Below, in pieces: positions 6,270-57,366 of a stretch of 64,000 bases of DNA. Source of the stretch: Natronorubrum tibetense GA33 (GTDB lineage: Archaea > Halobacteriota > Halobacteria > Halobacteriales > Natrialbaceae); assembly GCF_000383975.1 (NCBI RefSeq), contig NZ_KB913021.1, forward strand, positions 1 to 64,000, in the 5' to 3' direction. Position 1 is the stretch's first letter. Each line of letters begins with the position of its first letter. The notes under the pieces are model-generated. The model saw nothing but the letters and a program-made list of their open reading frames with translations, was not told the DNA's origin and searched no databases. The position numbers and the translations under genes are program-made.

Positions 6270-7694
6270 TCATCTGGCCGTCCAGAGAAGCACGATTGAG
6301 ATGAAAAGCGCGATCAGGGAGCTGAGAGTCGCAAGACGAAGTACGACCCTGACAGCGTCTGACCGTGCGGTCGCGGGCCGTAGGTCGCGTTGTCTGTGAT
6401 CACCGCGCCAGTGACGGATCGCGACCGTGACGATCAGCACGAATGCGGACACAGCCACCATCAAGCCCTGGGTGAGGCCACCGACGCCACTCACGGCATC
6501 CACCAAATACCTTCCCAGCGGTGCTGGATGGGCCGCGATGAGGTCTCTCACCGCAGCCCTCCCATGCAAGGCCGTACGCCGAATTACGTCGGCACCGGCG
6601 ACACCACCCACGACGCCGACGACTAGCCCGATAAACGCGGCGAGGACTGCAATACCAGCCTGACGGTAGCGCGCTCGGCTACTGTCGACGACCGTCAGGT
6701 TCGAGGACTCGGCGAGACGTTCAGCCAGGAGTTCTCGGAGGACGCTCTTACTGGTCTCGACGTCGATGGTGGGATCGTTGACCGTTTCACGGTATGCCAC
6801 ATTCAGGTCGTCGACCGCGTCGACCAGACGCCCACGGACGCGTTCCCGCTTGACGTGATCGAGCTCGTCGTCGATCCGATCTTGTGTCTCGGGGAGCGGC
6901 TTCACCCGACTGTCCGACGGGAGGTCGCCGTTCGGGTGGATGACGATATCCGTGTCCTCGACGGTGTCGACGCGGCCCGCTTTCGAGACGGCGATCGTCA
7001 CCGCCGAGTCCGCGAGCGCGGACACCAGAAACGCGAAGAATCGTGCTGCGTCGTACGTCGACTGAACAGTAAAGTCCAGCCCTGCGCCGTCCATGGACGA
7101 GGCAGTCACGTCCGTCACCGACTCGGTCGATCCCCCTCCGTCGGTGGCGTGGTCACCCGTGCGTTTGGGCGGAGCACTTGAATCTGCATCCCGATTCGGG
7201 GCGGCCTCCAGGTCGTCGTCGCTCAAGACGGACCGGTCCCGACCGACGATACCACCTCGCGAGCACTCAAGGCCGATGCCGCTAGTGAGGTCACTCAGCC
7301 AGCCGTCCCACGACTCCTCGCGGCCGCCGTCGACCAGCCGGCGGATGGCGTCGCATTCGGGCTCCGCGACGGGGAGCGGGTCAGCGCTGAGCCCGTCGAG
7401 GGCCCACCGCGAACTCGTCGCATTGTCGGGCGGAGCCTCCGCGACCGAAAACTCCGACTCGCTGCCCTCCTCCACTGCTGGCCTGACTGCCCCAAGGTCG
7501 ATTCCGTCAGCGAACGTGCACTCGACAGTCGCCTGTACCGGGTACCCGAGACGGCCCTCGAAATAACTGCAGACGACGTTGGCTCTCGTGTCCGCGTACA
7601 GCAGGACCACCCCTGGGTCGATGTAGTCCAGTTCGCCGGGGTCGTCGGCGAACATCTCATCGCCGTCGTTTCGGAAGACGCGCACGTCCGGCAT
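6270..7694 (-). CDS. Membrane protein, partner of the adjacent G-domain protein
   Basis: 474 aa, family not recognised. The soluble N-terminal part (about 1-340) starts MPDVRVFRNDGDE and includes an acidic low-complexity linker around residues 150-190. Three hydrophobic helices close the protein: one containing IAVLAAFIGLVVGVVG, one containing GLMVAVSAFVLIVTVAI, and one at the very end containing LSSLIALFISIVLLW. The C-terminus is followed by only a few residues. The gene starts one base after the stop of the membrane GTPase gene, so the two are translated from one message and likely act together at the cell membrane. Function is unknown. Confidence 0.8.
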   Translation of the reverse strand: MPDVRVFRNDGDEMFADDPGELDYIDPGVVLLYADTRANVVCSYFEGRLGYPVQATVECTFADGIDLGAVRPAVEEGSESEFSVAEAPPDNATSSRWALDGLSADPLPVAEPECDAIRRLVDGGREESWDGWLSDLTSGIGLECSRGGIVGRDRSVLSDDDLEAAPNRDADSSAPPKRTGDHATDGGGSTESVTDVTASSMDGAGLDFTVQSTYDAARFFAFLVSALADSAVTIAVSKAGRVDTVEDTDIVIHPNGDLPSDSRVKPLPETQDRIDDELDHVKRERVRGRLVDAVDDLNVAYRETVNDPTIDVETSKSVLRELLAERLAESSNLTVVDSSRARYRQAGIAVLAAFIGLVVGVVGGVAGADVIRRTALHGRAAVRDLIAAHPAPLGRYLVDAVSGVGGLTQGLMVAVSAFVLIVTVAIRHWRGDHRQRDLRPATARSDAVRVVLRLATLSSLIALFISIVLLWTAR

Positions 7695-7695: not shown

Positions 7696-9282
7696 CTACG
7701 CGTCCCCCTTGATGCGCTGGAGTAGCGATTGGGCGCCGTTGACGTCGATCGGACGCTCCGGAACCGGCTCGCCTTCCGCCAGGGACGCGTCGTGGTCGAG
7801 GTCGTAGTAGACAGGGTAGACGCGGTCGACCTGGGCTTGGTTCACGAGCGCCCCCAGCTTCTCGCGGCCCTCGAGAGACTCGAGCAGGTGGTAGTTTACC
7901 CAGTCGAAGAACGGCAGCCGGGTGTCGACGGTCCGATACAGCTGATAGAGATAGTCCGCCTTCGTCACCACCAGCACGACTTCCTTCTCGTCGAGCATGC
8001 TCTGATCGAGGTGCCTGATCAGCTGCACGTACGTGTCGAGGTACGACGCGAGGTCGTCCTGCGTGTCGTAGTCGCCCTCGCCGTAGGGGACCTCGGGGAC
8101 AAGGCTCCCAGCGTCGACGATGACACACAGCGTGTCCGAGTGCACGATCTGCTTGGCCATCACACGCTGAATCTCGTCGGAGTCCAGCCCCTCGGCTTTC
8201 TCCGGAAGATCCGGTAGACCACGCACGGACTCGTAGGTGTAGACGAGCCACTGCAGGGAGAGCCGGGAGTCCGGGGCGAACGCCTTCACGTACTCGACCA
8301 AGTTCTCGTCGACGTACTCACCAGCGTAGTCGAGGACGTCGACCTGGATGTACTCCTTGAACAGTTCGCCGGCTCTGGTCCGGAACTGGTGGAGGTGGTA
8401 CTCGCCCTTCTCCGTCGGGCCGGTGTACCCGTCGCCGCCGAACCCGTCTTCGTCTTCACCGCCGCGCAGCGATCCAACGAGCGCGGAGAGGGGGCCCGAG
8501 GGGCTCAGGCGCGTGTTTCGTGCACTCTCATCGGCGGCGATGTTGAGTGCTGCCGCCAGCATGGTCTTGCCGGCCCGCTGGACGCCGACGACGAACACGT
8601 CACGCTGTGCCTTGTAACCTGTGAACAGGTAGGCACCCGTCACAAGGACGGACGCGGCGATGAAGTCAGTGAACAGGCCTTCACCGACGAATCTGACCTG
8701 ATTGATTGCAGCGACCTGCATGTGGCCGTCGACCAGCGCCTCCCCCGACGTGTACACCAGATGATGGTCGACGAAGCCGATAGTAACGATCCCCGCGACT
8801 ACCCAGAACAGAGCGGTCGTCACGGCCCGGAACTCGTAAGGCGGGTTATTGCTTCGAAGTCGGCGGCCGCCCGCGAGCAGGAAGGATGCCGCGAATCCGG
8901 CTGCGATCACGGGCGCGTTCTCGACCGGGTACAGCGGATACAGAACCCCGTTGGAACGGAACACCGTCACGGAGATAGCCGAGGCCACCGCTAACAGGAC
9001 GCCCTGGATCCGCTTGATGTCGTCTAACAGCAACAGCGCGACTAGCCCTGCGTACGCACCGAGCCCGAACAGCACGAACTCGCCGTGGCTGATGCCCGCG
9101 AGTTCTTCAAACGTGACGACCGCCGTCCGAATGAGGCCGTCGGACTGCCACGCCGCACTCACCATCCTCGTGACCGTCGGCGTCACCACTGCGATGATCG
9201 CCAGGTAGAACACGAGATCAACTTTCTCCCAAAACTCTGCGAGGCCCTTGTGGTCGGCCTCTGGTTCTTGTGGGTACTGCAT
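7696..9282 (-). CDS. Multi-pass membrane protein with C-terminal small-GTPase-like domain
   Basis: 528 aa. The N-terminal half holds about five or six hydrophobic helices (roughly 22-39, 70-87, 92-107, 123-138, 155-175 and 205-221). A P-loop domain follows: G1 GVQRAGKT at 233-240, G3-like DYAG at 318-321 and G4-like TKAD at 440-443, in the order and spacing of a Ras/Arf/SRPRB-type G domain with a large insertion of Gly and Asp after G1. It should bind GTP on the cytoplasmic face of the membrane. Known membrane-anchored GTPases act in vesicle formation, protein targeting or membrane shape; which applies here is unknown. A decayed copy of the N-terminal half lies at 29150-29640. Substitutions outside the G motifs mean catalytic activity is not certain. 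Confidence 0.85.
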   Translation of the reverse strand: MQYPQEPEADHKGLAEFWEKVDLVFYLAIIAVVTPTVTRMVSAAWQSDGLIRTAVVTFEELAGISHGEFVLFGLGAYAGLVALLLLDDIKRIQGVLLAVASAISVTVFRSNGVLYPLYPVENAPVIAAGFAASFLLAGGRRLRSNNPPYEFRAVTTALFWVVAGIVTIGFVDHHLVYTSGEALVDGHMQVAAINQVRFVGEGLFTDFIAASVLVTGAYLFTGYKAQRDVFVVGVQRAGKTMLAAALNIAADESARNTRLSPSGPLSALVGSLRGGEDEDGFGGDGYTGPTEKGEYHLHQFRTRAGELFKEYIQVDVLDYAGEYVDENLVEYVKAFAPDSRLSLQWLVYTYESVRGLPDLPEKAEGLDSDEIQRVMAKQIVHSDTLCVIVDAGSLVPEVPYGEGDYDTQDDLASYLDTYVQLIRHLDQSMLDEKEVVLVVTKADYLYQLYRTVDTRLPFFDWVNYHLLESLEGREKLGALVNQAQVDRVYPVYYDLDHDASLAEGEPVPERPIDVNGAQSLLQRIKGDA

Positions 9283-16849: not shown

Positions 16850-17566
16850 ATGCTCGTATCGATCCTCTCGAAGACAAAGGCGTGGATGCTGGACCACTCC
16901 GAAGAAACGGATACCCTCACAGAGCTCGACGAGATAGAGCTCCAGCGGCGAATCCACGAAGCAGAACGAAGGACAACCGAGTACCGGGAGCAGATCGAGT
17001 CGCTGCGGGAGCGCTACCGGTCAACCGTACAGCGAGCTGAGCGCGTTGAGGACAGTACGCTCGACATCGTTCGCACGGATCTGGCGGCCGTTTTCAATCG
17101 AACCGCGTTCGCGCGAGCAAAGTTAATCGAGGCCATGCGTGCGACACACGCCCTGCAGCGGCTCGCACTTGCCAAGCGCTCCGATATGTCGATATGTGGG
17201 GTCGATTTCGATCCGGACGCGTTCCCCACTGTCATCCACGACCCGGGCGACCCGGATCCATCGACGGAGGGGTTCGACCCGGTTCCAAACCTCGAACGGT
17301 TCGAGGGGCGGGGCCAGCGCGGACTGGGCGAAGTCGAAGCGAGAGTCGACAATGTGGTGACTGCCGCCCGGAGCGACGGACTAGTACCGACGCTCCCCGA
17401 ATTGTTCGAAACAGACACCGACGACGAACTCGACGGGTACGTCTACGGTCCGGGCAACGACGACGTTGACGAGGGCGAAGCGGATGCCAGCACTCAAGAT
17501 CCAGGACCCCCCGACGTCAACGCGGGCGATGACGACAATAGCGTCACTGATGGGGGGAGCAGTTGA
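16850..17566 (+). CDS. ESCRT-III/PspA-like coiled-coil protein, paralogue of 32640-33305
   Basis: 238 aa. The ATG at 16850 was preferred to a GTG one codon earlier because the paralogue starts the same way: MLVSILSKTKAW here, MLRRIISKTKRW there. Layout: a short amphipathic basic N-terminal helix, a long coiled coil (about residues 28-65), a second helix (about 75-110), a shorter helix after a spacer, and the shared motif VDxxxxAARxDGxVPTLxEL at about 166-185, followed by a disordered acidic tail. This hairpin-plus-tail plan is that of ESCRT-III and PspA/Vipp1 membrane-remodelling proteins, but there is no strong sequence match by eye, so the assignment is structural inference. It is flanked on both sides by metallophosphoesterase genes. 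Confidence 0.75.
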   Translation: MLVSILSKTKAWMLDHSEETDTLTELDEIELQRRIHEAERRTTEYREQIESLRERYRSTVQRAERVEDSTLDIVRTDLAAVFNRTAFARAKLIEAMRATHALQRLALAKRSDMSICGVDFDPDAFPTVIHDPGDPDPSTEGFDPVPNLERFEGRGQRGLGEVEARVDNVVTAARSDGLVPTLPELFETDTDDELDGYVYGPGNDDVDEGEADASTQDPGPPDVNAGDDDNSVTDGGSS

Positions 17567-21803: not shown

Positions 21804-22086
21804 GACACCGTATTTTTGGGGACGTGACCTAAAGCTACCCCCCGTCTCGACGGGGTACCGTGTCGCGTTCGACCGACCGATTCCTGCATCGATACCCATC
21901 GTCCTTTCGCTCGACGGAATGACCTCCGGCGAGAACGGTTGATGCGTCGTCGATTCAAGTGTGGTCATCGTGTCGAAGGGTTGCGTCGCCACGTCACCCG
22001 TTCTGGCGTCTTTCTACCTCCCCAACACAACATTTAAGGAGGAGAGGTGACCGGTGCTGCGAGAGGGCCGCGACGTCCCCGCCCCT

Positions 22087-22098
22087 TGCGTATAAAGG
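22087..22098 (+). promoter_or_regulatory. TATA-like box upstream of tyrS
   Basis: The sequence around 22090 (GCGTATAAAGG) is the clearest archaeal TATA-like element ahead of the TyrRS start at 22161. Transcription would begin near 22115-22120, leaving a leader of about 40-45 bases. A second TTTAAGG motif at about 22034 lies further upstream and could serve the divergent gene instead. Confidence 0.4.
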
Positions 22099-22160
22099 CG
22101 GTGTTCAGGTGCCTGCCGAACGCGAGGTCGAGTGCCGTGGGGATCATTCGTCGAATCGTG

Positions 22161-23204: not shown

Positions 23205-23320
23205 CGCCCGTCCCTGACAGCCTGGGACAGGAGTCCCGCTGGCCAAATCTACATCACGACAGAGGACAATTGGGGTATCGAACCGCGACGACCACACTCA
23301 CTCCACTCACTTCACGATTC

Positions 23321-26300: not shown

Positions 26301-27349
26301 TAGAGACACTACTCACGCTCGATGGCGCTCCCTCGCGTGCCGTCATCAACGACGCGGCTGTTGCGTTACAGGACGACGTAGCGACGGTTCGCGAAACGGC
26401 AGTGGAAGCGCTCCCCGGATTCGTCGAGCGCGTCGAGGCGTCCCTCGACCTGCGTTCACGTATCATTGTCTACCTAGGCGAACGGATCGAGGACGACGAT
26501 ACGGGGCGCGTGCGACGCGCAGCTGCGGAGGCGGCTGCCGAGGTCGTCGCATCGGTCGTCGACGACTTCGACGAACACGACGCCGCAGGCGACGATCTTT
26601 CGGGCAAGTGGCCGCCAACGGAGTGGGTTTGCGACGCGCTCGAGGACGACAATGCGGCGGTCCGCGACGCGGTCGTGGACAACCTCCCCAGTTTTGTGGC
26701 CGCGCTCTCTGGGCAGAGGGCGGCGGTCGCCGCACGCTACCTCGTCATCGCCGGACGGGAGTCGGGGAACTACCCGACCGACGCCGACCTCGCAGCCCTG
26801 ACCGCGCTCGCCAACCACCTCGACCCGACCGCGTTGCCGCCCATCGAGAAACACCTCGTTGCCGCCCTCCCGGACGCCGAGGGCGAGACGGTTTCGGCCC
26901 TCGCGGTGGCCCTTGGCGCGGTGACGGACGGTCAGAAGGGCTTCGCGAACGACGTCGTCGAGACGCTCCTGGACCGCATCGCGACGTCCCCGCATCCAAC
27001 GGGACCGTTCGGCCAACGGCTGCCGTCGCCACGGGCAGAGGCCGCGCGCGAGGTCCTCGCCGACCTCGTCGAAACGTTCCCGGAGAGGTTTGGCGGGCGC
27101 GTCGACCCCGAGTTGCTCACACCGTACGTCGGCCACGAACGAGACGCCGTCTGCGCAGCCGCGGCGACCGTCCTCGCGGCCGTCGTCGAGCACGGCGAGA
27201 ATCCAGACGCCGCCGTCCGGACCCGAGACGATCTCCGCGCGTGCCTCGCCGTCGAGGACCTCGCCGAGCCAGCACGGCTCGCGGTCCTCTCGCTCCTCGC
27301 GGACGACAGGGAGCTTGCACGCAGTCACACGCTACCCGATGACCGGTGA
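23321..27349 (+). CDS. Giant HEAT-repeat protein (1342 aa)
   Basis: 1342 aa from the ATG at 23321 (MTDDDLVDCIETASERDRS). It is almost wholly built of HEAT-like repeats with patterns such as VREAAVEAAP, RSRRRAFDALESVADALPG, VRMAAFDALESVAGAAA and VRTAAVETLL, so one long superhelix is expected. No catalytic motif or membrane segment. Codons are highly GC-rich, more than in the HEAT gene at 2041. It lies 117 bp after tyrS in the same direction and ahead of the zinc-finger gene at 27486. It is the largest of the seven HEAT/ARM proteins in this window. Confidence 0.85.
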   Translation: MTDDDLVDCIETASERDRSFAGLRARAAAARAAATAPPTDTETIEVVAALLAAELDATAAVSERVTGLDAIATDIQATCIDALAATPIDDPTAVGAALPVLGWATHRGRSLDVRTAAAERCLHVMLEADSIPADAVPVTDLMTAFEAGESNVRIQLAATRRGVIGHGGVYAAAAGQAPGTAPDVVRWLLRFEDFEFVNNRISFERGVANVLDTATGERARCVLEVVLEHLDHDDADYRRTAAGALADDPEAVPNGRIEDVLDALARRFDDDTRGIQEDAVEAALALLDRAPSAASTTFERLRSDAPADTVVAGLRDFDEAVPAVQASAVDFLLDVSDGVATDCTARRLGEYLAGGGRHRWTAVGAALFAGAATEVDSDDARNAAASKRLAELAPSADSGDANRVRALAAVTTGAGVEPVHGFVALVGTPGDLAVAVDRDSCLRDTLTACLRSARASDATCRRRARLAVELLTDALQGSDEWSDSDLEVVQDALRAVSDPVDATAESVAMRARVVAPVPESAGVQAPSTLAGLLGHTDVDVREHAVELLAAGSIDAGGEGDDAAQDATAVSDRFVDRLADDEDAVREAAVEAAPSVLGTLSVASSVVIADRLLERAASDDLRSRRRAFDALESVADALPGERIERVATVALLGLASHDSGTRSVAADLLLAVVPRLAADQAAAVAAGVSAASDSYGDVIFDGLDILWALASTPGTEVAVARGFARTLTASRVARDHLTDASVGFDVTHAQVRRLVDGLVTKLAATDADTAADTDADAEAITALDVVATTLPGDRIEPIVDTLAIAAISEDAAVRMAAFDALESVAGAAADAAPRSTWTPLGPLLVHDRPRVRRGALHVVTHVLSAGGDPDAAAVRARESTSTTGASPLAATGSDEGAVLRAVLEDCLTDDESIVRVAATQAIPAVATVHSTPGSSWAVEHLYERMNDDSAQARLAAVEGLRDVIGHADKVRTPVRFRLADLVADDPKVSVRTAAVETLLTLDGAPSRAVINDAAVALQDDVATVRETAVEALPGFVERVEASLDLRSRIIVYLGERIEDDDTGRVRRAAAEAAAEVVASVVDDFDEHDAAGDDLSGKWPPTEWVCDALEDDNAAVRDAVVDNLPSFVAALSGQRAAVAARYLVIAGRESGNYPTDADLAALTALANHLDPTALPPIEKHLVAALPDAEGETVSALAVALGAVTDGQKGFANDVVETLLDRIATSPHPTGPFGQRLPSPRAEAAREVLADLVETFPERFGGRVDPELLTPYVGHERDAVCAAAATVLAAVVEHGENPDAAVRTRDDLRACLAVEDLAEPARLAVLSLLADDRELARSHTLPDDR

Positions 27350-28437: not shown

Positions 28438-28929
28438 ATGCGGAACACCACCACGAGCGAGAGCGACGCGTCCGGCTGGAACTGGCTCGGCGTCGCCCCC
28501 GCGGACACCGCGGGCCGCGTCAAGCTCCCCCGCTCCCTGCTCGAAGAGGGCGTCTTCGACCAGCACGAGGAAGCTTACTGGAGTCACGAGACCACCACCG
28601 GCACGCTCGTCGTCTCCTCGGCCCCGCTCGAACTGGAGGGCTACGAGACCGTGGCGGCGCGGAAGATCGGGAGCGAGGCCGACGGTCACCGCTGTACGGT
28701 CCCCCACCAGTACACCGAGGGCGACTCGGACCTGGCGCACATCGCCATCCAGGGCGCCGAGCCGACGTTCGACGGCAAGGAGCGCGTCCACTTCGTCTAC
28801 CACGACGCCGTTATCGAGCGCGAGACGCCGTGGTGCTTCGTGCTCCGTCAGAGCGAGTTCGAAAACCGACTGCTCGCGCCCGGCGACTGGCCCGAGACCG
28901 TCTTCCCGGAATCAACGCGCCTGCTCTGA
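28438..28929 (+). CDS. Hypothetical protein, AbrB-like fold suspected
   Basis: 163 aa from the ATG at 28438 (MRNTTTSESDASG). Two segments look like a swapped-hairpin AbrB pair: GRVKLPRSLLEEGVF with ETTTGTLVVSS, and HRCTVPHQYTEGD. AbrB-type proteins bind DNA as transition-state regulators or antitoxins, but the motif here is weak. No toxin gene is adjacent. The start follows the end of the small gene upstream by 5 bp, so both are on one transcript. Confidence 0.6.
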   Translation: MRNTTTSESDASGWNWLGVAPADTAGRVKLPRSLLEEGVFDQHEEAYWSHETTTGTLVVSSAPLELEGYETVAARKIGSEADGHRCTVPHQYTEGDSDLAHIAIQGAEPTFDGKERVHFVYHDAVIERETPWCFVLRQSEFENRLLAPGDWPETVFPESTRLL

Positions 28930-29149: not shown

Positions 29150-29640
29150 TCAGCCGGTGGCACAGAGGAGCGTGGCCGAGGGGAGGAGTGCAATGCGTGC
29201 AGCGACGATGACGGCGGTGAGCGCGAGCTGAAAGAGGTCCGCGCCAACGAGCGACAGCTGCGTGACGGTGGCGAGCTGGAGTTGGCCGTCGGCGAACGAC
29301 ACCAGCGTCGTGTACGGCAGGTGGCCGTTCGACCGGAATCCAGCGACTGCGAGCAGTACGCCCTGCACGCGGTTGATATCGTCGAACAACAATAGCGCGA
29401 CCAGGCCGGCGTACGCACCAGGACTGAACAGGACGAGCTTGAGGCGGCTCGCCCCTATCAGTTCTTCGAACGTGACGACTGCCGTCCGACTCAGGCCGCC
29501 GGACTGTCAGGCCGTAGTTACAATCACCATCACCGCCGGCGTCACTGCCGCGATGTGCGCCAGATGCGCCAGATAGACGACGATGCCTACTCTCTCCCAG
29601 AACTCTTGGAGACCGTCGTGGTCTCGCTCCGAAACAACTG
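29150..29640 (-). pseudogene. Decayed N-terminal copy of the membrane G-domain gene
   Basis: Read on the - strand this aligns with the N-terminal half of the gene at 7696-9282: GLQEFWERVGIVVYLA matches GLAEFWEKVDLVFYLA, then RTAVVTFEEL is identical in both, and DDINRVQGVLLAVA matches DDIKRIQGVLLAVA. A stop (TGA) at 29507-29509 stands where the intact gene has Trp45, and a block of about 70 residues is missing after FRSNG. The G domain is absent. It is thus a dead, internally deleted duplicate. Only about a hundred bases separate it from the start of unrelated sequence on both sides. Confidence 0.85.
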
Positions 29641-29742
29641 GTTGCTGGCGTGCAACACTAGTTTCCGGCGAAGCCACCCCCAAGGCGGGAGTCGCGTATA
29701 CAGCCTTCGCAATCCGGAGTTGTTTGAAGCAGGCGTGCTCGG

Positions 29743-32508
29743 CTAGCGCGCGCCCTGGCCTCCAGCGGTAGCCGTTACCGGAACGGCTCGACTGTCGGTC
29801 TCGGCCAGCAGTGAAACGATCCGCACTCTCGATTCGACCGACGAGACGTCGTCCAAGTGATGAACCAGTTGCTCGACAATCGGTTCCGGCAACGAACGAA
29901 CGCCCTCGAGGGTCGAAACCAGTTCGATGACTGCCTCCTGTGTCCGCTCAATCCCCGCCAGTGCGCTCTCGACGAGCAGGCGATCTTCGTCAGGACCCGA
30001 CTGTAAAAGCAGATAGACGACTCTAGAGGGTTCGATGACACCAGCACGGAGTGCCGACTCGAGCAATTCGAAGCCAGCCGTCGACCCACCTTCTTCCTGG
30101 AAGTGATCCGCAAACCGTTGCCTGTCCGGGGATTCCGAGTGTCGGAGTTCCACGGCTCGAAGCGCTCCGAGCTCCTGGGCATAAGTCCGCGCTCTTCGAG
30201 TCCGAACCCGTGACTTGGCGTGCGTGATGAGAGGGTCGTCCTCGCCCCAGTCGGAGTACGCGGTGATGATGCCGAGTACCGTGGGATCGTCTGCTAGCTG
30301 TGCGCTGATCGCCTCGCTGGGCCCGTACGCGAGTGCGATTACGTATCCGGTCGCGACGTACAGTCGTCGTTTCTGGGGCGATTCCTGCGAGCGAACCGCG
30401 TCCCACATTCGACGTGGGGTGCCCTCGAGTCGCTGTGGTGCTCTGTATCCAGCGCCGAAGGCGAGCGCTGCTGCCACCGATCTGGCGCGGGGGCTTGCTT
30501 CGTTAGCCACCCGTTCGGTCAGGATATCGAGCGCCTGTTGTATCTCCGAAATGCCCACTATTCGTTCGATCTCGCCGGCGATTCTCGCGGCCGTACTTGG
30601 TTTCAAGCCGCCCTCTCTGTCCGTTGCCGCCCGTAGCCCGTCGAGTTCCGCGGCCGAGTACGCGGTTTCGTCTGCGAGCAGTATCCAGCCACAGAGTTCG
30701 GATGCGAACGCATCGTCGATCAGGTCCGAATCCCACTCCAAATCGCCGACCGACAGTTGCTTAGTCGGAGACTCCTCGGCCGCCGACCGAAGGTGCCGCA
30801 CGGTTCGCACGGAATCCCCGTCGTGAGCGACGACGAATCCGAGTGCCTGTGATGCGCGCTCGTTCGACGAGAGTCCACCGGCTCGGGCCTGTTCCGCGAG
30901 TGTTTCGATTACGGAGTCTTGGACACTGTCGTCGAATGCCGCTAACGTTCCGAGTGCCGTCGCCGCTTTTCGACACCCGGGCGTGTCACTAGCACGAACG
31001 AGCACAGCGAGGTTCTTGGAGAGCGATGCGTCGTCGAATACGAAACTAAAGGTGACAAGCAACCCGAGTCGTTTGGCGACCTCGGAATCGATACGGGAGG
31101 TATCCGAGACAGCCGATGCCATCACTCGTTGGATCGGCTTTGGAGGACTGTAGGAGTCGGCCGAAGCGACCACCACGCCGAGGGCAGCCTGTGCTTTCTC
31201 GGGCCAGAACGTTGGCGTCTCGAAGGCCTCAGCGACGTGTTCGGCGAGCCCCTGTACCGTTTCGCGTTCGTCGTGGGGATCACCGTACGCCGAAATGTAG
31301 CCGAGGACACTTTCCGGATCTCCGAGCAGTGGCCGAGCGCCAGAACGCGGCTCGTCTCTGAGGGTAGTCGCGAGTTCGTTGACAACATCGACCGTGTCGT
31401 CTGAATCGAGGTAGGCTGTAGCCCTACCGAGTATCGGGAGAAGTTCTTGCTGGCCAATCGGCGACGTTCGTACGCGCTCGGCTAGCGCTTCGAGGTCGAC
31501 CCCAGTTGGCGAGAGTGCGCCGATCGCGATGAGGTTGCCGAGGACTTCGGCCGCCCGCTTCCACGGGTATGCGGGTCGGGCATAGATATCGGCGCAGAGT
31601 GCTTCGATCGCATCACTCTCCGTATCGGCATCGTAGAGCAAAGTGAACAAGAGCCCGAGTATCTCGGCGGCCTCCCCTCGGTCGAAGCTAGTTTCGTTCC
31701 TCACGACACGCACGAGAGTCTCGAAGATAGCCGACGTTGACACCTCCGACTCAAAATCGGTCTTCCGAGAGAGTGCTGCCAGACCGATGGCTCCCCAGAG
31801 GATTCGGGCGTCTCGACCGCCGACACTGTAACCCTGTAGTTCGTCGAAAGGCTCGGCAGCCAGTTGCAGTGCATCCGTCACGGATGGGCGCATCGCTACG
31901 GCTCTTGGCGCCTGCAGAGCGACGAGTGCGAGGAACCGGATGGCAGCGGGGGTCGATCGAGACGCTGAACGATCGGATCCCGACCTACGGAGTTCGTCGA
32001 TGACGTGGTCGGCAACCGCATCGGCCGTCGTGGAGATATCGATCCGGTCAGTGACGAGGACTGGATCACGGAGTACGAAGCCGTCGAGTACTTCTATCGC
32101 GTGGTCGGCGACGGGCATGGCCCCTGTTTCGACCATCGTCGTTTCGAGGGCGTCCAGAACGACGTGCTTCTCGGCAGTATCGAGTTGCGTCGCGAGAGTG
32201 TCGAGATCGAAGGCGGCGAGCGTGGCTGCGAGGAGCCGACGGCTGTCAGCGATCACGTCGGAGACACCGAACACGGCAGCCGCTGAATCGGGCTCTGGAC
32301 GAGTGAGCAGCCGAGACAATTGATCGGCGACCGGAGCAGAGAGATCTTGGGAGGCTACGTCCTCTTCCGCGTATTCGAGCGCCCGTTCGCACAGGTCTCG
32401 ACGTTTGAGGATCGTCGAAGGCCCGGGATTGCGCGGTAACGGTGTCTGAAGTTCATCGACGATCCTCGCAACGTCCGTTTGGGCCCGGTCCGGAAGTCGC
32501 CGAGTCAT
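29743..32508 (-). CDS. Large HEAT/ARM-repeat protein
   Basis: 921 aa, starting MTRRLPDRAQTDVARIVDEL at 32508. The protein is helical repeat throughout, with recognisable units such as KRAAEVLGNLIAIGAL and CRKAATALGTLAAF, and its end (SVESRVRIVSLLAET) resembles the final cap of other HEAT genes here. No catalytic motif. It is divergent from the ESCRT-like gene at 32640, with 131 bp between start codons, so shared control of scaffold and remodelling module is plausible. Confidence 0.82.
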   Translation of the reverse strand: MTRRLPDRAQTDVARIVDELQTPLPRNPGPSTILKRRDLCERALEYAEEDVASQDLSAPVADQLSRLLTRPEPDSAAAVFGVSDVIADSRRLLAATLAAFDLDTLATQLDTAEKHVVLDALETTMVETGAMPVADHAIEVLDGFVLRDPVLVTDRIDISTTADAVADHVIDELRRSGSDRSASRSTPAAIRFLALVALQAPRAVAMRPSVTDALQLAAEPFDELQGYSVGGRDARILWGAIGLAALSRKTDFESEVSTSAIFETLVRVVRNETSFDRGEAAEILGLLFTLLYDADTESDAIEALCADIYARPAYPWKRAAEVLGNLIAIGALSPTGVDLEALAERVRTSPIGQQELLPILGRATAYLDSDDTVDVVNELATTLRDEPRSGARPLLGDPESVLGYISAYGDPHDERETVQGLAEHVAEAFETPTFWPEKAQAALGVVVASADSYSPPKPIQRVMASAVSDTSRIDSEVAKRLGLLVTFSFVFDDASLSKNLAVLVRASDTPGCRKAATALGTLAAFDDSVQDSVIETLAEQARAGGLSSNERASQALGFVVAHDGDSVRTVRHLRSAAEESPTKQLSVGDLEWDSDLIDDAFASELCGWILLADETAYSAAELDGLRAATDREGGLKPSTAARIAGEIERIVGISEIQQALDILTERVANEASPRARSVAAALAFGAGYRAPQRLEGTPRRMWDAVRSQESPQKRRLYVATGYVIALAYGPSEAISAQLADDPTVLGIITAYSDWGEDDPLITHAKSRVRTRRARTYAQELGALRAVELRHSESPDRQRFADHFQEEGGSTAGFELLESALRAGVIEPSRVVYLLLQSGPDEDRLLVESALAGIERTQEAVIELVSTLEGVRSLPEPIVEQLVHHLDDVSSVESRVRIVSLLAETDSRAVPVTATAGGQGAR

Positions 32509-32639: not shown

Positions 32640-33305
32640 ATGCTCCGACGCATCATATCGAAGACTAAGCGCTGGGTGAACGTCAACGTCATCGGACGCT
32701 CTCCCATCGATAACATGAGTCCCCTCGAGCTCGAGCGCCGAATCCGGAAGCTCGAGCGCCAGAAACAGGAGTACAAGAGCGACATGACTAGCGCGAAGAA
32801 GGAGTACGACGAGAAGATCAAGGAAGCACAGAACGCCGACGAGACGCGCATCCCGGAGATCAAGTCCGAGGCGTCGCGGCTCCTCAGCAAGTACGAGGCT
32901 ATCCGCTCGCAGTGGATGGAGACGCTCGTCGGCTTGCGGTTCATGCAGCAGGCCGCGCTCGGCAAGCAGATCAGTGCCGACGGCCCGGAGGCGTTGCCAT
33001 CGAACATGAACCCCCGTCAGTTCGAGGCGGCCGCCCAGTCTATCGAGGAAAAGATAGGGCGGCGCGAGGATCGCCTCGACGAGTGGGGGATCGCCGCGAA
33101 CCGCCTGGAGGACATCAGTCAGGGCGGGTCGGCGCACATCGAGGCAATGGCGGACGAGCGTGTGGACGCGGCGATCGACGCCGCGCGGGACGGCGATGAG
33201 GTCCCCACCCTCGAGGAACTCGCTGACGACACGTTCAGCGACGTCGAGGAGAGCGTGTCCGAACCCGAAGCCGCCTCGTCGACCGGGCAGGCCGAGCACT
33301 TCTAG
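32640..33305 (+). CDS. ESCRT-III/PspA-like coiled-coil protein
   Basis: 221 aa from the ATG at 32640; an upstream in-frame extension without a gene-like composition was rejected, because the paralogue begins with the same amphipathic helix. Layout: basic N-terminal helix MLRRIISKTKRW; first long helix (about 28-66, LELERRIRKLERQKQEYK); second helix (about 71-108); third helix (about 126-158); conserved tail motif VDAAIDAARDGDEVPTLEEL at about 175-194; acidic end. A basic helical hairpin followed by a regulatory tail is the plan of ESCRT-III and PspA/Vipp1 filaments that bind and bend membrane. The next gene, 26 bp on, is a Vps4-like ATPase, which in other systems disassembles ESCRT-III. Linkage makes the call more likely but does not prove homology. 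Confidence 0.78.
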   Translation: MLRRIISKTKRWVNVNVIGRSPIDNMSPLELERRIRKLERQKQEYKSDMTSAKKEYDEKIKEAQNADETRIPEIKSEASRLLSKYEAIRSQWMETLVGLRFMQQAALGKQISADGPEALPSNMNPRQFEAAAQSIEEKIGRREDRLDEWGIAANRLEDISQGGSAHIEAMADERVDAAIDAARDGDEVPTLEELADDTFSDVEESVSEPEAASSTGQAEHF

Positions 33306-33331
33306 CGGTTCAACCACTTCCCCTTTCATTC

Positions 33332-34600
33332 ATGAAGTACGATGCTTACCGGATAGAGATACTACGAGAACAGTACGAGGACTCGTTCAAGTCCGCCCAA
33401 GAGCACCGCCGAGCTGGCCGCAAGAAGGCGGCGGCGAGAGCGTACGCAGACGCCGCGGAAACGCTGTCGAAACTGGACGATGCGACCAACGAAGACCGTG
33501 CGCATCAGGTGAAACGCTTGGAGCGGGCGGCAGACATTCTGCGTCGCGGCGAGGACCTCGAGGACCACTTCAAGCGTAATCAGGAGCCAGAAGATGACCG
33601 AGGCGACGGTGGTGGACCGCCATCTGTTGGTGGTGACAGCGAGGACGACGAGATGCGCGCACAGATGGAGTCGTTCATTGCGGAGACCGAGACGACGTGG
33701 GCGGACATCGGCGGCCTGGATGATGTCCAGCACGACCTGAAGCGCGCGGTGGCGCTCGGCTCAATCGCGAACAAGCCCGATGCGGTGTCCGCGACCGAGC
33801 GGATACTGCTCTTCGGCCCCCCAGGGACTGGCAAGACGTTGCTCGCGAGTGCTGTTGCCGGGTCACTCGATGCCAACTTCTTCAAAGTCGAACTCGGGAA
33901 CCTCCTGTCGAAGTGGTACGGCGAGTCCTCCAAGCAGATCTCGGCGCTGTTCGAGACCGCAGCCGAGTTGAGTCCGAGCGTCGTCTTCCTCGACGAGGTA
34001 GACTCGCTCGCGCAGTCACGGGACGGTGATATGAACGAGACGTCACGACGGGTGCTCGACACGTTGCTCGCAGAACTCGACGGCGTCGAGAAGGGGAGCG
34101 ACGACTTCGTGCTGACGCTGGCGGCCACCAATACCCCCTGGATTCTGGACAGTGCGATTCGGAGTCGATTCCCGAAGCGCATCCACGTCCCCCTTCCGAA
34201 CGTCGATGCTGCAACCGAGATTATTCGAATCCACACGGTCGACGGCGGCGTCGCGTTCGAGGGCCACCCTAGCGCGTTCGTCGACGACTCAAAACACGCT
34301 CGGGGCGTTGACAGTCCCGAACGCGCCATCGCCCAACGCTGCGTCGAGGATGGCTACACCGGCCGGGACATGGAGGCGCTCTGCAGTGCCGCGGTGAACA
34401 ACATGGTCACGCGGCACAACCCCGACCTCGCGCACCTCGTCGACGAGAGCGTCAAACGCCTGCGCTCACACACGCTCAACCTCGGCCGCATCAAACCGCA
34501 GGACGTCACCCACGCGTTCGCGACCACGTCACCCTCGCTCCCAGAGGAAGACGTCGCGCGCTTCTACGACTGGGATGACGAATACGGTTCCCGGACCTGA
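33332..34600 (+). CDS. Vps4/katanin-type AAA ATPase with MIT-like N-terminus
   Basis: 422 aa. Residues 1-80 form a three-helix pattern like an MIT domain (about 15-75, with AAARAYADAAETLSKL and KRLERAADILRR). A disordered linker follows. The AAA domain begins TTWADIGGLD near 121: Walker A GPPGTGKT at 162-169, pore loop KWYGES at 194-199, Walker B VVFLDE at 217-222, sensor 1 in TNTP near 267, and arginine fingers Arg277/Arg279. The end FPKRIHVPLP is a hallmark of the meiotic clade (Vps4, katanin, spastin), unlike Cdc48. These enzymes pull apart filament subunits with ATP. The upstream coiled-coil gene is the likely substrate. Activity is not shown by sequence, but all key residues are present. 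Confidence 0.92.
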   Translation: MKYDAYRIEILREQYEDSFKSAQEHRRAGRKKAAARAYADAAETLSKLDDATNEDRAHQVKRLERAADILRRGEDLEDHFKRNQEPEDDRGDGGGPPSVGGDSEDDEMRAQMESFIAETETTWADIGGLDDVQHDLKRAVALGSIANKPDAVSATERILLFGPPGTGKTLLASAVAGSLDANFFKVELGNLLSKWYGESSKQISALFETAAELSPSVVFLDEVDSLAQSRDGDMNETSRRVLDTLLAELDGVEKGSDDFVLTLAATNTPWILDSAIRSRFPKRIHVPLPNVDAATEIIRIHTVDGGVAFEGHPSAFVDDSKHARGVDSPERAIAQRCVEDGYTGRDMEALCSAAVNNMVTRHNPDLAHLVDESVKRLRSHTLNLGRIKPQDVTHAFATTSPSLPEEDVARFYDWDDEYGSRT

Positions 34601-35870: not shown

Positions 35871-38800
35871 TTACTGGTACACGACCGATTCGAGCGCGGC
35901 GTCGATGTCGATATTGAGATTTGCCTCGATGCGGTCGCCGTCGTCTATGACGGCCTCGATTTCAATAAGGTGGTCGACGGCTTCCTCAAGCCGTTCCTCG
36001 ATACGGCTGCCGACGCGATCGTAACCGAACCGTCGTGTAGTCTCGAGGACGAGGTCGGTGCGGGTCATCGCGCCCCCGTTCGCAAGCAGTACGTAGGAGG
36101 CTTTCGCGAGTTCCGCACGTGGAATCGCGGTGACTTTGCGGCGATCATCGGCGTGTCCGCGGAGCGGAATCTCCGCGGCATCTCGCGGTGGCCAGAGGAA
36201 GGCGTCGTGGATGTGGAGGTGGCCGGCATCGGCGATCGCCTGGGCCTGGTCAGCGAGCCGCTCGCGGAGGTCGGTGTCGAGACGGTCGGCTTCGAGCGCC
36301 TCGGCGACGGTTCGGTAGGCGGTTGTCTCGGTGACGGGGCCGGCATCGGCGACTATCGAGAGGAGTGCACGCTGGACTTCTCGCGGTGGCACGCCGAAGT
36401 CGTCGCCGTTGAGATCGGGGACCGTGGGCGGCTCGTACGTGTCGAATGGGTCACCACCGTCGGACTGTACAGGGTGCGAGTCCGCCTCTTCAGCGGCTGG
36501 GTCGGTGGCGGTGCACTCGCGGTCGCTCGGCGGGTGCACGAGGGTCGTAGCGTCGACCGCCGGCTCGGGATCGCCGTTGCCGTTGACACGTTCGCGGATG
36601 CGGTCACGTTCACGTTCGGGGTCGGTCGCCCAGGTTGGCGCCCAGATACGATGGACGTCCCAGCCGCGGTCCGCAAGCACGAGCTGGCGGAGGCGCTCGC
36701 GATCTCGGGTACTGGCGGCGTGTCGTGCCGCGGCACCGTCGAGTTCGATGCCGAGCGCGTACTGGTGGGGGTCCTCAGGGTCGCGTATCGCCATATCGAG
36801 GACGTACCCCGCGGTTCCGAGGTCGGTGGCGACATCGAATCCGGCATCGCTAAGCGTCTTGTAGACATCGCGAGCAAGCGGCGAGTCGAGCGTATCGTCG
36901 GTTGGCGACGCCCTGCCGGCGGTCGTGGGGACGCTGTCGGCGTCGACCTCGCTCGTGATCGGGGGGTCACCGTCGCTTGCGGTCGGAGACGCGGCGGTGG
37001 GGTCGTGGTCGCGGACGTGCGCAAGGTAGCGTTTGAAGTCCGCGACGCCACGGTGTGTGGCGCCGCTGGCGTCGACGTCTTCGGGATGGAGCGAGGAGAC
37101 GACGGTAACCTGGCGGCGGGCGCGCGTGATAGCGACGTTCAGGCGGCGGTGCCCCCCGCTCCGGTTCAGAGGACCGAAGTTCGCGGTCACGGTCCCCGAT
37201 TCGGTAGGGCCGTAACCGACGCTAAAGACAATGCGGTCGCGTTCGTCGCCCTGAACGACCTCGAGGGTCTTCACGAAGAACCCCTCCTGGACGTCCTCGC
37301 AGTCGACGAATGCGTCGAGCGTAGGGTTCTCGCGGCGGCGGTCGGCGAGCGCGTCGCGGATGGCGCGCTCTTGGGCGCGACTGAACGCAACCACACCGAG
37401 GGTCTCGTCGGGACGCATTTCGGCGTGGCTGGCAACGATGTCGACGACACGCTCGGCCTCGCGCTCGTTCTGTCTGGTGTCGCCGCGGTCGTAGACGCCG
37501 TCGGGGACGTACTCGAACTCGAGGCCTGTGGTCGTATCGTCGGTGGCCGGCGCGGGGAATGTCCGGAGTCGTCCGTCGTAGTAGCGGTCGTTCGAGAACG
37601 AGACGAGCGACGGGGCGGCGCTCCGGTAGTGCCACGTGAGGTACTGCTCGGGGATCACGGCCGCGGCCTCGTCGAGGATGCTCTCGAGGTCAGTGCGGCC
37701 GCCTGTGTCGTCGGCGAGGTCGGTCTCGAAGAACGACGTCGGCGGGAGCTGGTTCGCGTCCCCCGCGACGATCACCTGGTCGGCACGGACGAGTGCGCTC
37801 ACGGCTTTCGCGGGCGGTATCTGGCTGGCCTCATCGAAGATGACGGTGTCGAACTCGATGGCGTCGAGCGCGAGGGAGTCAGCGACGGTACGGGGACTCA
37901 TCATAAAGCACGGCTTGAGTTGCTGGATGATTTCGCCGGCGTCCGCGAAAAGTTCACGGAGCGGTCGCTGGTGGTGGGCCTTCCCGAGTTCGCGCTTCAG
38001 GACGACCTGCGCGGCGCTGTCGGCGTGTTCGAGTTCGATGCTGGGACGACGGCTCGTGACGGCGTGGCGGACGGCCGCGGCGTCATGCTCTCGGAGCGCG
38101 TCGTCGGCCTCTCGGTACGTCTCGAGGTGGTGTGTGTACGTCTCGGCGTTGAACGTGTCGAGGTCCGTCTCGTCGTAGAGGGCGTTCAGCCAGTGGCGGT
38201 AGAACCCACGCTCGAACGCGCTGACGAGGTGGCTAGAGTCGTGGCCGGCCGCGAGGAACTCGTCGAGATAGTCGCCGGCGATAGTGTCGGCGACGCGGTT
38301 GCGGGCGGCTTGGAAGGCTACCCAGTCTTGGAGGCGGTCGAGGTTCTCGCGCAGTGTTTCGAGGACGGTGCGCTGGGCGCTCCACGACGCGGCGGGGAAC
38401 GCGGTACCGTCGGCGTCCAGTTCATCGAGTGCGACGAACGACGCGAGGTCGTCGCGGGCGGCCTGGAAGCGTTCGCGGTGCGTGGCGAGCGCTTCGTGGA
38501 ACTCGTCGATGGTATCGAACGCGTTCGCGTCCAGGCCCCCGCTGGCGGTCGCTGGGTCGACGACGTCGGTGTCGGCAAGTGCACGCACCCAGTCCGAGAC
38601 ACCCTGCACCCGCTGCCAGTCGATGTTCTCCTGCAGGCGCGCACCATCGATGCCGTCCTGCGTGGGCTCGGGGTCCACATCGGTTCCGTCCACAAACGGC
38701 ACGAGGTAGCGCGGGTCGACATCCACCTCGGCGATAGTGTCTTCGAGTGACTGGAGCGCGCGGAGCCGACGGGCGTCCTCACGGAGAGCCGCGAGGTCCG

Positions 38801-40748
38801 GCGTGTAGCCCTCGCGTGCGTGAGTGGTGAGCCGGCGCTTGAGTCGCCGGTAGCTCGGACGGACGTACCGCAGCCGTCCGTACGCGCAGAGCGTCTCGTG
38901 GAGTTCGCGGCCATCCTCGTCGAAAATGCTGGACGCGTATCGCTCGCGGAGGTGCGATTCGTGATCGGCGCGTTCAACGTGCGCTGCGGCCAGGGTGGCG
39001 ACGGGGCCGTCAGGCGCGTAGAACGCGGCGTCGAGAAATGCTGCCGGGAGCAAGTTGACGGGGGCGTCGGTGAGCGTCACGAGCGCGCGCTCGACATCTT
39101 CGAAGCTGGTCGCGTCTCGGAGTTCGACGCTGACGGTAGACGCAAGCCGGTCCGCGAGGTCGCACATCGCGTCGACGGCGGAGAGCTGATCTTCGATGGC
39201 GTCGGCGACACGCTCGCGGGTGTCGACGCGCCATCCGTCGACCGTCGCCGCCCGCCAGGGGTGCGTCGCGAAGTTCTCGAGTACGTCATCGAACGCCGCC
39301 ACCTCACGGAGTGCGGTGATGGCGTCGTCGACAGCGTTCTGTCCGACGGCGAGCGGCGCGTCGACGTTTACGTCGACTCGAGGTTCGTTGCGGCCGGCGG
39401 CGACGATGCCGAGCGCCTCGTAAGGCGTGACCGCAAACCCATCGGGCGGCGTCGTCAATCGCTCCGCGTGGTCGTCGAGGATGGCGGCCGCGTCGTCGCG
39501 GTGCTCACGGCACGCGTCCCGACCCGCCGGTAGGTCGGCGCGGCCAGAGCGCAACTCGCGGCCGAGCGCGTCCAGGACGTTCGACTTGGTGGCCTGCTGG
39601 CCGTGCGCTTCGAGACAGAACCGCCCCAGTCCGACCTCCGCGAGCCGCGACTGGACGACGTCGAGTGCGGCCTGCTTTTCGCTGACGAACAGCACGCGCT
39701 CGTCCCGGCCAAGCTTCGCCGCGACGATGTTTGAGATCGTCTGACTCTTCCCCGTGCCCGGTGGACCCTGGAGGACGAAGCTCTCGCCGTCGAGTGCCGC
39801 GTCGATGGCCGCCCGCTGGGACGGGTCCGCCTCCAAGACCTGGTATGCCAACTGGTTCGCGTCGCGCTCTGTCTCGTCAGTGGACGTTCCTTCCCTCGTC
39901 GTCCCGTCGGCAGTCGTCTCCTCGTTGATTTCTCGGTCGTCCGTGTGGCCGTTGAGGGCGTCGGTGTCGCCGGCGATTGCGCGCACGAGCGGGTCGCTCG
40001 TGATGGCCTCGCGGTTCCGGTCGAGGTCCTCGTAGAGACTGACAGTCGCGAAGTCGAAAATGCAGACCGCGAGCTCGCGGGAGATTCCCCAGTCGTGGAA
40101 CGAGTCGGCGATGGCGGCGATGGCGTCGAACGCGGCGTCGAGGTCATCGACGGCGATATCACCGTCGGCGGGAAGGTCGAGGTCCCGTTCTATCTGGAGC
40201 TTCCGGCGGAGCGCCGGGTTCACGACGAGCGGCGCCCCGTCGTACGCCACGACGTGTGCGTGGACGTCCTCGGCTGTTTCCGGCCGGTGTTCGAGTTCGA
40301 CCGACAGGAGGAACAGCGGGGACTCGTAGGGCTCGGTGTCACCGGATTCGGTCCACGTGAGGCGGCCGATCGACAGGAACAGCGTATCCGCGCCGCGCTC
40401 GCGGAGGTACTGGCGGTGATAGCGTTCGATGGCGTCGAGCGACTCCTCGGCCGCCTCTGGCGCTCGTAGGGCGACCGCCGCGTCTGTCCCTGCCGAGTCG
40501 CTGACCGTCGTCGGGTCCGTTCGGGCCGTCTCCGGTGGTGACTCGTCCGGTGCCTTCGCGAGTTCGATCGCGCCAGTCTCGCGGAGGCGGTCGACGACCG
40601 GCCCAGCCGCCGCAGCCAGCGGAATCGACTTCGTCTTTGTCGGCTCAAAGTCCACGAGCGTATTCCGCCGCGTCAAATCGAGGAGTTGTTCCTGCCAGCC
40701 GTCGACGACCGCGTCCACGGCCGCGTCGCAAGCCTCCTCCGCCGTCAT
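35871..40748 (-). CDS. DUF4011-type SF1 helicase with Vsr-like nuclease domain
   Basis: 1625 aa. The N-terminus has the DUF4011 signature WQEQLLDLTRRNTLVDF (residues 18-34). The SF1 helicase core has Walker A GPPGTGKS at 328-335, DEASQIPPAKA (Walker B) and GDANQLPP in the next third, then VVQGDERD and VAITRARRQVTVVSS (motifs V and VI). Near the C-terminus, GYVLDMAI and YALGIELDG with DRERLRQLVL and GWDVHRIW match the Vsr-like/MTES_1575 endonuclease domain (PD-(D/E)XK type). A further 190 residues form a tail, perhaps winged-helix. Proteins of this plan are large single-gene or accessory factors found in defence islands. It probably unwinds and cleaves nucleic acid. Gene is complete; no partner is adjacent. 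Confidence 0.92.
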   Translation of the reverse strand: MTAEEACDAAVDAVVDGWQEQLLDLTRRNTLVDFEPTKTKSIPLAAAAGPVVDRLRETGAIELAKAPDESPPETARTDPTTVSDSAGTDAAVALRAPEAAEESLDAIERYHRQYLRERGADTLFLSIGRLTWTESGDTEPYESPLFLLSVELEHRPETAEDVHAHVVAYDGAPLVVNPALRRKLQIERDLDLPADGDIAVDDLDAAFDAIAAIADSFHDWGISRELAVCIFDFATVSLYEDLDRNREAITSDPLVRAIAGDTDALNGHTDDREINEETTADGTTREGTSTDETERDANQLAYQVLEADPSQRAAIDAALDGESFVLQGPPGTGKSQTISNIVAAKLGRDERVLFVSEKQAALDVVQSRLAEVGLGRFCLEAHGQQATKSNVLDALGRELRSGRADLPAGRDACREHRDDAAAILDDHAERLTTPPDGFAVTPYEALGIVAAGRNEPRVDVNVDAPLAVGQNAVDDAITALREVAAFDDVLENFATHPWRAATVDGWRVDTRERVADAIEDQLSAVDAMCDLADRLASTVSVELRDATSFEDVERALVTLTDAPVNLLPAAFLDAAFYAPDGPVATLAAAHVERADHESHLRERYASSIFDEDGRELHETLCAYGRLRYVRPSYRRLKRRLTTHAREGYTPDLAALREDARRLRALQSLEDTIAEVDVDPRYLVPFVDGTDVDPEPTQDGIDGARLQENIDWQRVQGVSDWVRALADTDVVDPATASGGLDANAFDTIDEFHEALATHRERFQAARDDLASFVALDELDADGTAFPAASWSAQRTVLETLRENLDRLQDWVAFQAARNRVADTIAGDYLDEFLAAGHDSSHLVSAFERGFYRHWLNALYDETDLDTFNAETYTHHLETYREADDALREHDAAAVRHAVTSRRPSIELEHADSAAQVVLKRELGKAHHQRPLRELFADAGEIIQQLKPCFMMSPRTVADSLALDAIEFDTVIFDEASQIPPAKAVSALVRADQVIVAGDANQLPPTSFFETDLADDTGGRTDLESILDEAAAVIPEQYLTWHYRSAAPSLVSFSNDRYYDGRLRTFPAPATDDTTTGLEFEYVPDGVYDRGDTRQNEREAERVVDIVASHAEMRPDETLGVVAFSRAQERAIRDALADRRRENPTLDAFVDCEDVQEGFFVKTLEVVQGDERDRIVFSVGYGPTESGTVTANFGPLNRSGGHRRLNVAITRARRQVTVVSSLHPEDVDASGATHRGVADFKRYLAHVRDHDPTAASPTASDGDPPITSEVDADSVPTTAGRASPTDDTLDSPLARDVYKTLSDAGFDVATDLGTAGYVLDMAIRDPEDPHQYALGIELDGAAARHAASTRDRERLRQLVLADRGWDVHRIWAPTWATDPERERDRIRERVNGNGDPEPAVDATTLVHPPSDRECTATDPAAEEADSHPVQSDGGDPFDTYEPPTVPDLNGDDFGVPPREVQRALLSIVADAGPVTETTAYRTVAEALEADRLDTDLRERLADQAQAIADAGHLHIHDAFLWPPRDAAEIPLRGHADDRRKVTAIPRAELAKASYVLLANGGAMTRTDLVLETTRRFGYDRVGSRIEERLEEAVDHLIEIEAVIDDGDRIEANLNIDIDAALESVVYQ

Positions 40749-40978
40749 CGACCCACCTCCGCGTCGGTGATGTGGAGTCGCGATGTTCGGGATGATCGAA
40801 TGTCTGGAGTCGCGAGCGTCATCTCACTCGAACATCACCCCTCGATCGGATAGTGGGGCCTGGCGATGCACAACTACTGTAACGTTAGGAGTGGGACACG
40901 AGCGCGAGCTACTACACGGCCTGTAGGCGCACACAGCGACCTAAACGGCCAGTGCACGGAAACTCACGTGAGTCATCC

Positions 40979-41560
40979 ATGCATCCCGAACCGCACGATT
41001 CAGCGTTCTACCGCACCATCATCGAACATCTCGTCGACGACTGCCCGTGGGACTCAATCAACGGCGATGTCAGGCCGAGCCGCGTCGCTGCAACCGCGGC
41101 CGACCCAACCGCCGTCGCCGAACTCCAGCTGACGCACCTCTTGACTGACGCGGAGCTATACTGCCAACTCCCCGGCCCCGGCGACGGTTCGGCCGCACAT
41201 CTAGTCCTCTACCAGGGACTCGACCATGCGCTCGATGGCACTGGTGAACCGAGCGACGACGGGTTTGTAGAAACCCTCTCGGCAGCACACGAGACCATCG
41301 CGAGCGTTCACGAGAGCGAGTACGTCACGCCCGTTGCAGACCCCACCATCATTCTCGAGGCACACGTCCCGCACAGCTACACCGAGAGCAAGCTGTATTC
41401 GATGATGACCGCAATTTCGGCGACCGCGCTTCGTGTCCAGCGCCTGCATGGCGAGCTCCGAACAACGGTGAACGCCGTCTCGAACGTCGAGTCTGACGGC
41501 GGCCACCGACGCTCCCCGCTCGTATTTGAATCCAGCGTTGAGTCGGCATGTCAACGGTAG
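40979..41560 (+). CDS. Hypothetical protein next to the helicase
   Basis: 193 aa from the ATG at 40979 (MHPEPHDSAFYRT). The composition is haloarchaeal (acidic, GC-ending codons), with helices such as TAVAELQLTHLL and SYTESKLYSMMTAISATALR. No known domain. It is divergent from the helicase gene, with 230 bp between starts, and may be under a shared control region. Its job is unknown. Confidence 0.65.
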   Translation: MHPEPHDSAFYRTIIEHLVDDCPWDSINGDVRPSRVAATAADPTAVAELQLTHLLTDAELYCQLPGPGDGSAAHLVLYQGLDHALDGTGEPSDDGFVETLSAAHETIASVHESEYVTPVADPTIILEAHVPHSYTESKLYSMMTAISATALRVQRLHGELRTTVNAVSNVESDGGHRRSPLVFESSVESACQR

Positions 41561-57286: not shown

Positions 57287-57366
57287 GAATGACTGATTGT
57301 ATGATTGGTGTAGGACTCGGTCGTGCTGGCAGGCCAGCATCCGCAAGAACTCGGAGGTGAATCCTG

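Follow-up and report, generated by a model that had tools for sequence, protein, structure and literature searches.

The coil-ATPase gene pair and its replicon

Two adjacent genes were identified on the forward strand of the window, by which is meant the whole 64,000-nucleotide stretch of the Natronorubrum tibetense GA33 contig that was analysed. The first (32640..33305, + strand) begins with an ATG at 32640, has its stop at 33305 and encodes P0002, a 221-aa ESCRT-III-like coil protein with an N-terminal helix, a hairpin and an acidic C-terminal part that carries a conserved tail. The second (33332..34600, + strand) encodes P0001, a 422-aa Vps4-type AAA ATPase with an N-terminal MIT domain. 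The spacing of 26 bp that the sequence-only reading had given was correct, since the coil gene ends at 33305 and the ATPase gene begins at 33332. Homologues of both proteins were encoded side by side on a plasmid of Halomicrobium urmianum (coil 52%, ATPase 67%), and a more distant homologous pair was found on a plasmid of Halobaculum rubrum (coil 36%, ATPase 52%), indicating that the coil and the ATPase are real genes and not chance open reading frames.

The contig is 166,050 bp long and bears a ParA-type gene close to its start, at 216-1127. It is therefore likely a plasmid or secondary replicon, in agreement with the plasmid location proposed earlier. Of the 392 haloarchaeal genomes searched, 11 gave an ATPase match with an E value no higher than 1e-60, and a coil gene adjoined it in 11/11, a count in which some coils had sat in the seed profile and those of loci L022, L023, L024, L025 and L027 were found anew. 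No coil relative was found in the viral contigs searched, and phage matches to the ATPase were to generic AAA proteins only.

The ATPase is of the meiotic type with an N-terminal MIT domain

The motifs KWYGES and FPKRIHVPLP were present in the ATPase as they had been quoted, and KWYGES together with SRFPKRIHVPLP marked it as a meiotic-type AAA protein. The predicted model (pLDDT 82) had its best matches among solved structures in spastin, katanin, FIGL1 and Vps4 (Z about 30). By structure match and motifs combined, the protein has one AAA module, which belongs to the meiotic type (Vps4/katanin/spastin). In a tree of 52 sequences it fell in a haloarchaeal group (support 100/100) nested within a 23-row MIT-AAA group (100/99) that comprised haloarchaea, Thermococcus, Archaeoglobus, Methanomicrobiales, Methanoperedens, Cuniculiplasma, DPANN and two bacteria. 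This group, the ATPase included, was separate from Cdc48 and CdvC.

The suggestion of an MIT-like N-terminus was borne out for residues about 1-72 (33332..33547, + strand), where the model contained three helices, mostly at a pLDDT of about 90. A profile of 15 such N-termini matched the structure 2w2u over nearly its full length at E 6.5e-4, below a set of matches that consisted almost entirely of designed repeat or helical proteins; we take 2w2u to be the Sulfolobus Vps4 MIT domain, and its database record names it hypothetical p60 katanin. When the N-terminus of the whole ATPase family was compared with CdvC MIT domains by hhalign, values of 57-86% were obtained, with reversed controls at or below 2.5%. 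The single ATPase sequence gave no MIT match in Pfam. A Pfam Vps4_C match at E 0.044 was discounted as too weak, and the alignment was the sole basis for the Vps4-like C-terminal helix.

The coil protein has an ESCRT-III-type charge pattern and a possible family link to Snf7

Prediction of the coil protein alone, from an alignment of 8 rows, gave a model with a pLDDT of 67 that contained a helix at 2-18, a long hairpin at 28-64/71-114 and more helices to residue 207. The helical hairpin anticipated from the sequence was thus predicted, after an N-terminal helix, and the predicted order of helices fits that expected of ESCRT-III. The model could be superimposed on ESCRT-III hairpins (CHMP1B, 87 residues at 1.2 A), with prefoldin and other helical hairpins matching equally well; because helical hairpins are common in unrelated folds, Foldseek and VIA-align did not single out ESCRT-III. 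The charge pattern was that of ESCRT-III, with a basic N-terminal half and an acidic C-terminal half: residues 1-115 had a net charge of +7, where stretches of the same length from other proteins of the window averaged -8.9 (sd 5.4), and the part beyond residue 115 had a net charge of -20.

Single-sequence searches with the coil in Pfam, NCBIfam, PADLOC and the PDB returned nothing useful, and P0002 alone matched neither Snf7 nor PspA in Pfam. Among the 22 coil proteins of the group, Snf7 was the commonest Pfam match (6/22, best E 1.3e-5). An alignment of 144 collinear columns was obtained between the haloarchaeal coil profile and the ESCRT-III-like proteins that Snf7 recognises (64%, P 6.5e-5; reversed control 0.1%), an earlier hhalign round with smaller alignments having been weaker. 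No hhalign signal was seen between the coil family and CdvB or PspA, which miss each other in the same comparison, and the value for PspA (3.9%) lay under its own reversed control. The PDB, searched with a profile of all coil proteins, yielded generic coiled coils and helical bundles only. The comparison with ESCRT-III and PspA profiles that the sequence-only reading had proposed gave a signal to the Snf7-positive group, at the level of the family profile, and none for the single sequence or to CdvB and PspA.

A second coil paralogue and a conserved tail

A second coil paralogue of 238 aa was encoded at 16850..17566 (+ strand; E 3.3e-10, 25% identity; hhalign 96.8%, reversed 0.2). In related loci there are two or three coils of this kind, and the paralogue, a candidate second ESCRT-III-like subunit, is likely a co-subunit of P0002. 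The best conserved part between the two was the C-terminal tail, residues 173-198 of P0002 (33156..33233, + strand), in which 12/26 positions (46%) were identical, compared with 3/41 (7%) in the preceding linker. On the strength of this conservation the tail is a candidate MIT-interacting motif, and its conservation between paralogues fits a docking site that both coils may have in common on a single ATPase. The earlier claim of a conserved tail therefore stood, but not the motif given for it: AARxDGxVPTLxEL fits the paralogue at 16850-17566 only, and the coil at 32640 reads AARDGDEVPTLEEL.

A membrane GTPase and its partner

A polytopic membrane protein of 528 aa with a C-terminal GTPase domain was encoded at 7696..9282 (- strand) and showed 60% identity to a protein adjoining the coil-ATPase genes of H. 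urmianum. Its adjacent partner, a second membrane protein of 474 aa (6270..7694, - strand), was 39% identical to the H. urmianum counterpart, and the same gene pair occurred in the related loci L011 and L014. Pfam assigned no family to the protein at 7696-9282. In its aligned homologues the GTPase motifs G1 (GxxxxGK[ST]), G3 (DxxG) and G4 (as [TS]KxD) were each found in 30/30.

The GTPase and membrane protein pair stands beside the operon in H. urmianum, in divergent adjacency, and is found in its vicinity in H. rubrum. The coil operon of the window is 23 kb away from the intact GTPase and has a broken copy of that gene close by. This remnant of a second GTPase copy (29318..29647, - strand) corresponds to the N-terminal 114 residues, with 62% identity to the protein at 7696-9282, an internal stop and indels. 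A small protein at 28529..28929 (+ strand), whose homologue flanks the GTPase pair in H. urmianum, served as a synteny marker, and another of 202 aa at 40952..41560 (+ strand) is a possible accessory whose homologues lie in the vicinity of the L011 and L014 coil-ATPase genes. The GTPase family was present in 45/392 haloarchaeal genomes, mostly without the coil-ATPase module; the three best-scoring GTPases among the 45 came from the three genomes whose coils are closest.

Across the whole genome neither a Pkinase domain (E 1e-5) nor a PP2C (E 1e-3) was detected. The related loci of Halarchaeum, H. mukohataei, Thermococcus and Chlorohelix had a Ser/Thr kinase in 4/4 and a PP2C nearby in 3/4, and no such GTPase. 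The neighbour proteins of the Thermococcus locus, presumably arCOG09748 and arCOG08177 (our own assignment), gave no tblastn match in the window plus 17 kb (81 kb).

Other genes of the window

Large proteins of HEAT-repeat type were unusually many on the replicon (11076-13658, 23270-27349, 42045-45041 and 50811-53048); a possible further one at 29743-32508 was recognised by eye and had no Pfam match. HEAT-type proteins also occurred near some related ESCRT loci. The proteins at 13876-15207 and 18347-20272 belonged to no Pfam family and seemed by eye to have a C-terminal region in common, ending CPLCA...C-G-DxC. The remaining genes of note encode a DUF4011 helicase-nuclease with a strong match (1154 bits) to the candidate defence model PDC-S37 (35871-40748), a LanM-type lanthionine synthetase (DUF4135 and LanC-like; 54101-57403) and, on this plasmid-like contig, a tyrosyl-tRNA synthetase (22047-23204).

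Bacterial relatives

Among the matches listed, the distribution beyond the haloarchaea included at least two bacterial loci with coil and MIT-AAA genes, in a Planctomycetota MAG and on a Chloroflexota plasmid, and the two bacterial ATPases were sisters in the tree (100/99). The plasmid NZ_CP128401.1 of Candidatus Chlorohelix allophototropha has a run of genes for two coils, the MIT-AAA ATPase and a WD40-repeat Ser/Thr kinase (L016 1-4655), and elsewhere a further weak Snf7 match (L157 1453-2031). The MAG contig QEVF01000007.1 encodes a coil, the MIT-AAA ATPase and a protein matching Snf7 at E 1.3e-5 (L028 5575-8720, L162 1303-1911); a second protein with MIT-like repeats was judged by eye, and the contig also bears a MurD-type ligase. 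Both may be read as bacterial ESCRT-like loci, provided for the second that the MAG is free of contamination.

Discussion

The central claim of the sequence-only reading, an ESCRT-III-like protein and a Vps4-type MIT-AAA ATPase in one operon on a secondary replicon, was supported, and the reading as a whole was supported in part. It had overlooked the second coil, the GTPase pair with its broken copy, and the lack of a detectable kinase and phosphatase of the usual kind. Judged from its sequences, the locus is probably a minimal membrane-remodelling module of the ESCRT-III/Vps4 type, carried on a secondary replicon, driven by ATP and acting in budding, sorting or repair, and not in division. 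Haloarchaea divide with FtsZ; this, the patchy distribution of the module and its place on a second replicon led us to reject a role in cell division.

In the mechanism we propose, the coil would attach to the membrane on its inner face and polymerise, the paralogue at 16850-17566 likely being its second subunit; contact with the membrane would be made by the N-terminal helix and the positively charged hairpin of the coil. The ATPase would catch the coil's C-terminal tail in its MIT domain, and threading of coil subunits through a hexameric pore would turn the polymer over and so bring about budding, sorting or repair. Upstream of this, the membrane GTPase and its partner may act as a recruiting or timing switch, in the place taken by the Ser/Thr kinase and PP2C in related archaeal systems. 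Polymerisation, tail docking, membrane action and the role of the GTPase are all inferred.

Three other readings of the two genes were weighed. The coil could be a PspA/Vipp1-type stress protein remodelled by its AAA neighbour, serving envelope repair and not an ESCRT/Vps4 pathway; fold and membrane action are common to PspA and ESCRT-III (PMC8281802), and the charge pattern of the coil is compatible with either. However, the genome bears its own chromosomal PspA (E 2.5e-34), the coil profile has no PspA signal but does have a signal to Snf7-positive proteins, and the partner ATPase has an MIT domain and groups with ESCRT-type loci, so that this reading appears improbable. We consider it similarly unlikely that the module is an anti-virus defence or plasmid-conflict system built on an ESCRT-like core. 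Such a role would suit a plasmid-like replicon, a patchy presence (11/392 genomes) and the candidate defence helicase-nuclease PDC-S37 downstream, but the relatives have ordinary metabolic genes nearby, the conserved partners are membrane proteins with no recognisable effectors among them, and no PADLOC model matched the coil or the ATPase specifically, the matches of the latter to IetA and TRIP13 being generic AAA matches. The defence role suggested earlier thus found no support beyond one neighbouring candidate gene. That the ATPase is a katanin- or spastin-like disassembler of some other polymer, with the coil only as an adaptor, would accord with the presence of spastin and katanin among its closest solved folds and with the existence of the tubulin-like CetZ in haloarchaea. 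It is nevertheless very improbable, given the link of the coil family to Snf7-positive proteins and the two or three coils of related loci, which fit polymer subunits better than an adaptor.

A separate question is whether the GTPase pair belongs to the membrane-remodelling module. Its linkage to the module on three replicons, together with the lack of a detectable kinase or PP2C, led us to propose that the GTPase replaces the phosphorylation switch; the locus would then be a plasmid-borne, GTPase-controlled ESCRT machine in which a membrane-embedded GTPase and its partner stand in for the kinase/phosphatase layer. From sequence evidence this proposal is tentative and to be held with more doubt than belief. 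The competing explanation, to which we would give somewhat less than an even chance, is that the pair lies outside the module and that the common neighbourhood reflects plasmid gene traffic only; it concerns the GTPase part alone, and the coil and ATPase would still be ESCRT-like. The linkage is seen on three replicons only, the intact window genes are 23 kb away from the operon, and the GTPase family is wider than the coil-ATPase module. Against gene traffic stand the divergent adjacency in H. urmianum and the closeness in H. rubrum, the broken copy close to the window operon, and the finding that the best-scoring orthologues are in exactly the three genomes with the linkage.

To our knowledge, no ESCRT function has been demonstrated in any haloarchaeon. 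Haloarchaea are genetically tractable, and a compact version with two coils, one ATPase and a GTPase pair would permit a direct test of vesicles or sorting in an archaeon that divides by FtsZ. In a genome without a detectable Ser/Thr kinase or PP2C, the same system could show whether a GTPase takes over the control of ESCRT. If true, a GTPase-controlled module would be an archaeal parallel to the cooperation of small GTPases with ESCRT in eukaryotic trafficking.

Comparison with known systems

The TACK CdvB/CdvC system likewise pairs an ESCRT-III filament protein with an MIT-Vps4 ATPase; in contrast, the window ATPase lies outside the CdvC group, no CdvA was seen, and haloarchaea divide with FtsZ. 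PspA and Vipp1 are helical hairpin membrane proteins of the wider ESCRT-III superfamily, but the coil has neither a PspA profile signal nor a PspA_IM30 Pfam match, and a separate PspA is encoded in the genome. VPS4-like ATPases are reported to have been transferred to bacteria with snf7 displaced by another gene (PMC11237479), whereas the Planctomycetota and Chlorohelix loci keep their ESCRT-III-like genes. ESCRT-like proteins are absent from most annotated Euryarchaeota genomes, and vesicle formation in H. volcanii depends on the GTPase ArvA (PMC10927574). The Haloferax ArvA, too, is a haloarchaeal GTPase, with a proposed role in deforming membranes, but it is a small GTPase, and the window protein is polytopic with its GTPase domain at the C-terminal end.

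Several haloarchaeal ESCRT systems, namely Main clade members, Halo_FHA and Halo_adaptin, are described in Makarova et al. 2024 (PMC10936438), in which the role of ESCRT in FtsZ-bearing archaea is argued to be vesicle formation and sorting and not division. Halo_FHA and Halo_adaptin share with the window a haloarchaeal host, a Vps4-like ATPase and an ESCRT-III-like gene upstream; however, no FHA or adaptin-type protein was recognised among the window proteins scanned, and the Halo_adaptin ATPase has VAT-N and no MIT domain, whereas the window ATPase has MIT. The Main clade combines Vps4, ESCRT-III, arCOG09748 (wH) and arCOG08177, often with STK and PP2C (in many members, not all). Like it, the window has coil genes of ESCRT-III-like kind ahead of a Vps4-type ATPase with an MIT domain, and this ATPase falls together with those of Thermococcus, Archaeoglobus, Methanomicrobiales and other haloarchaeal loci of Main-clade type. 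It differs in having one adjacent coil gene where the Main clade has two, and a membrane GTPase pair in place of a detectable kinase and PP2C. Since haloarchaeal ESCRT has already been published (PMC10936438), the module of coil and ATPase is not new in itself; what appears to be new is the composition, a membrane GTPase pair in a genome in which the usual partners, a Ser/Thr kinase and PP2C, were not detected.
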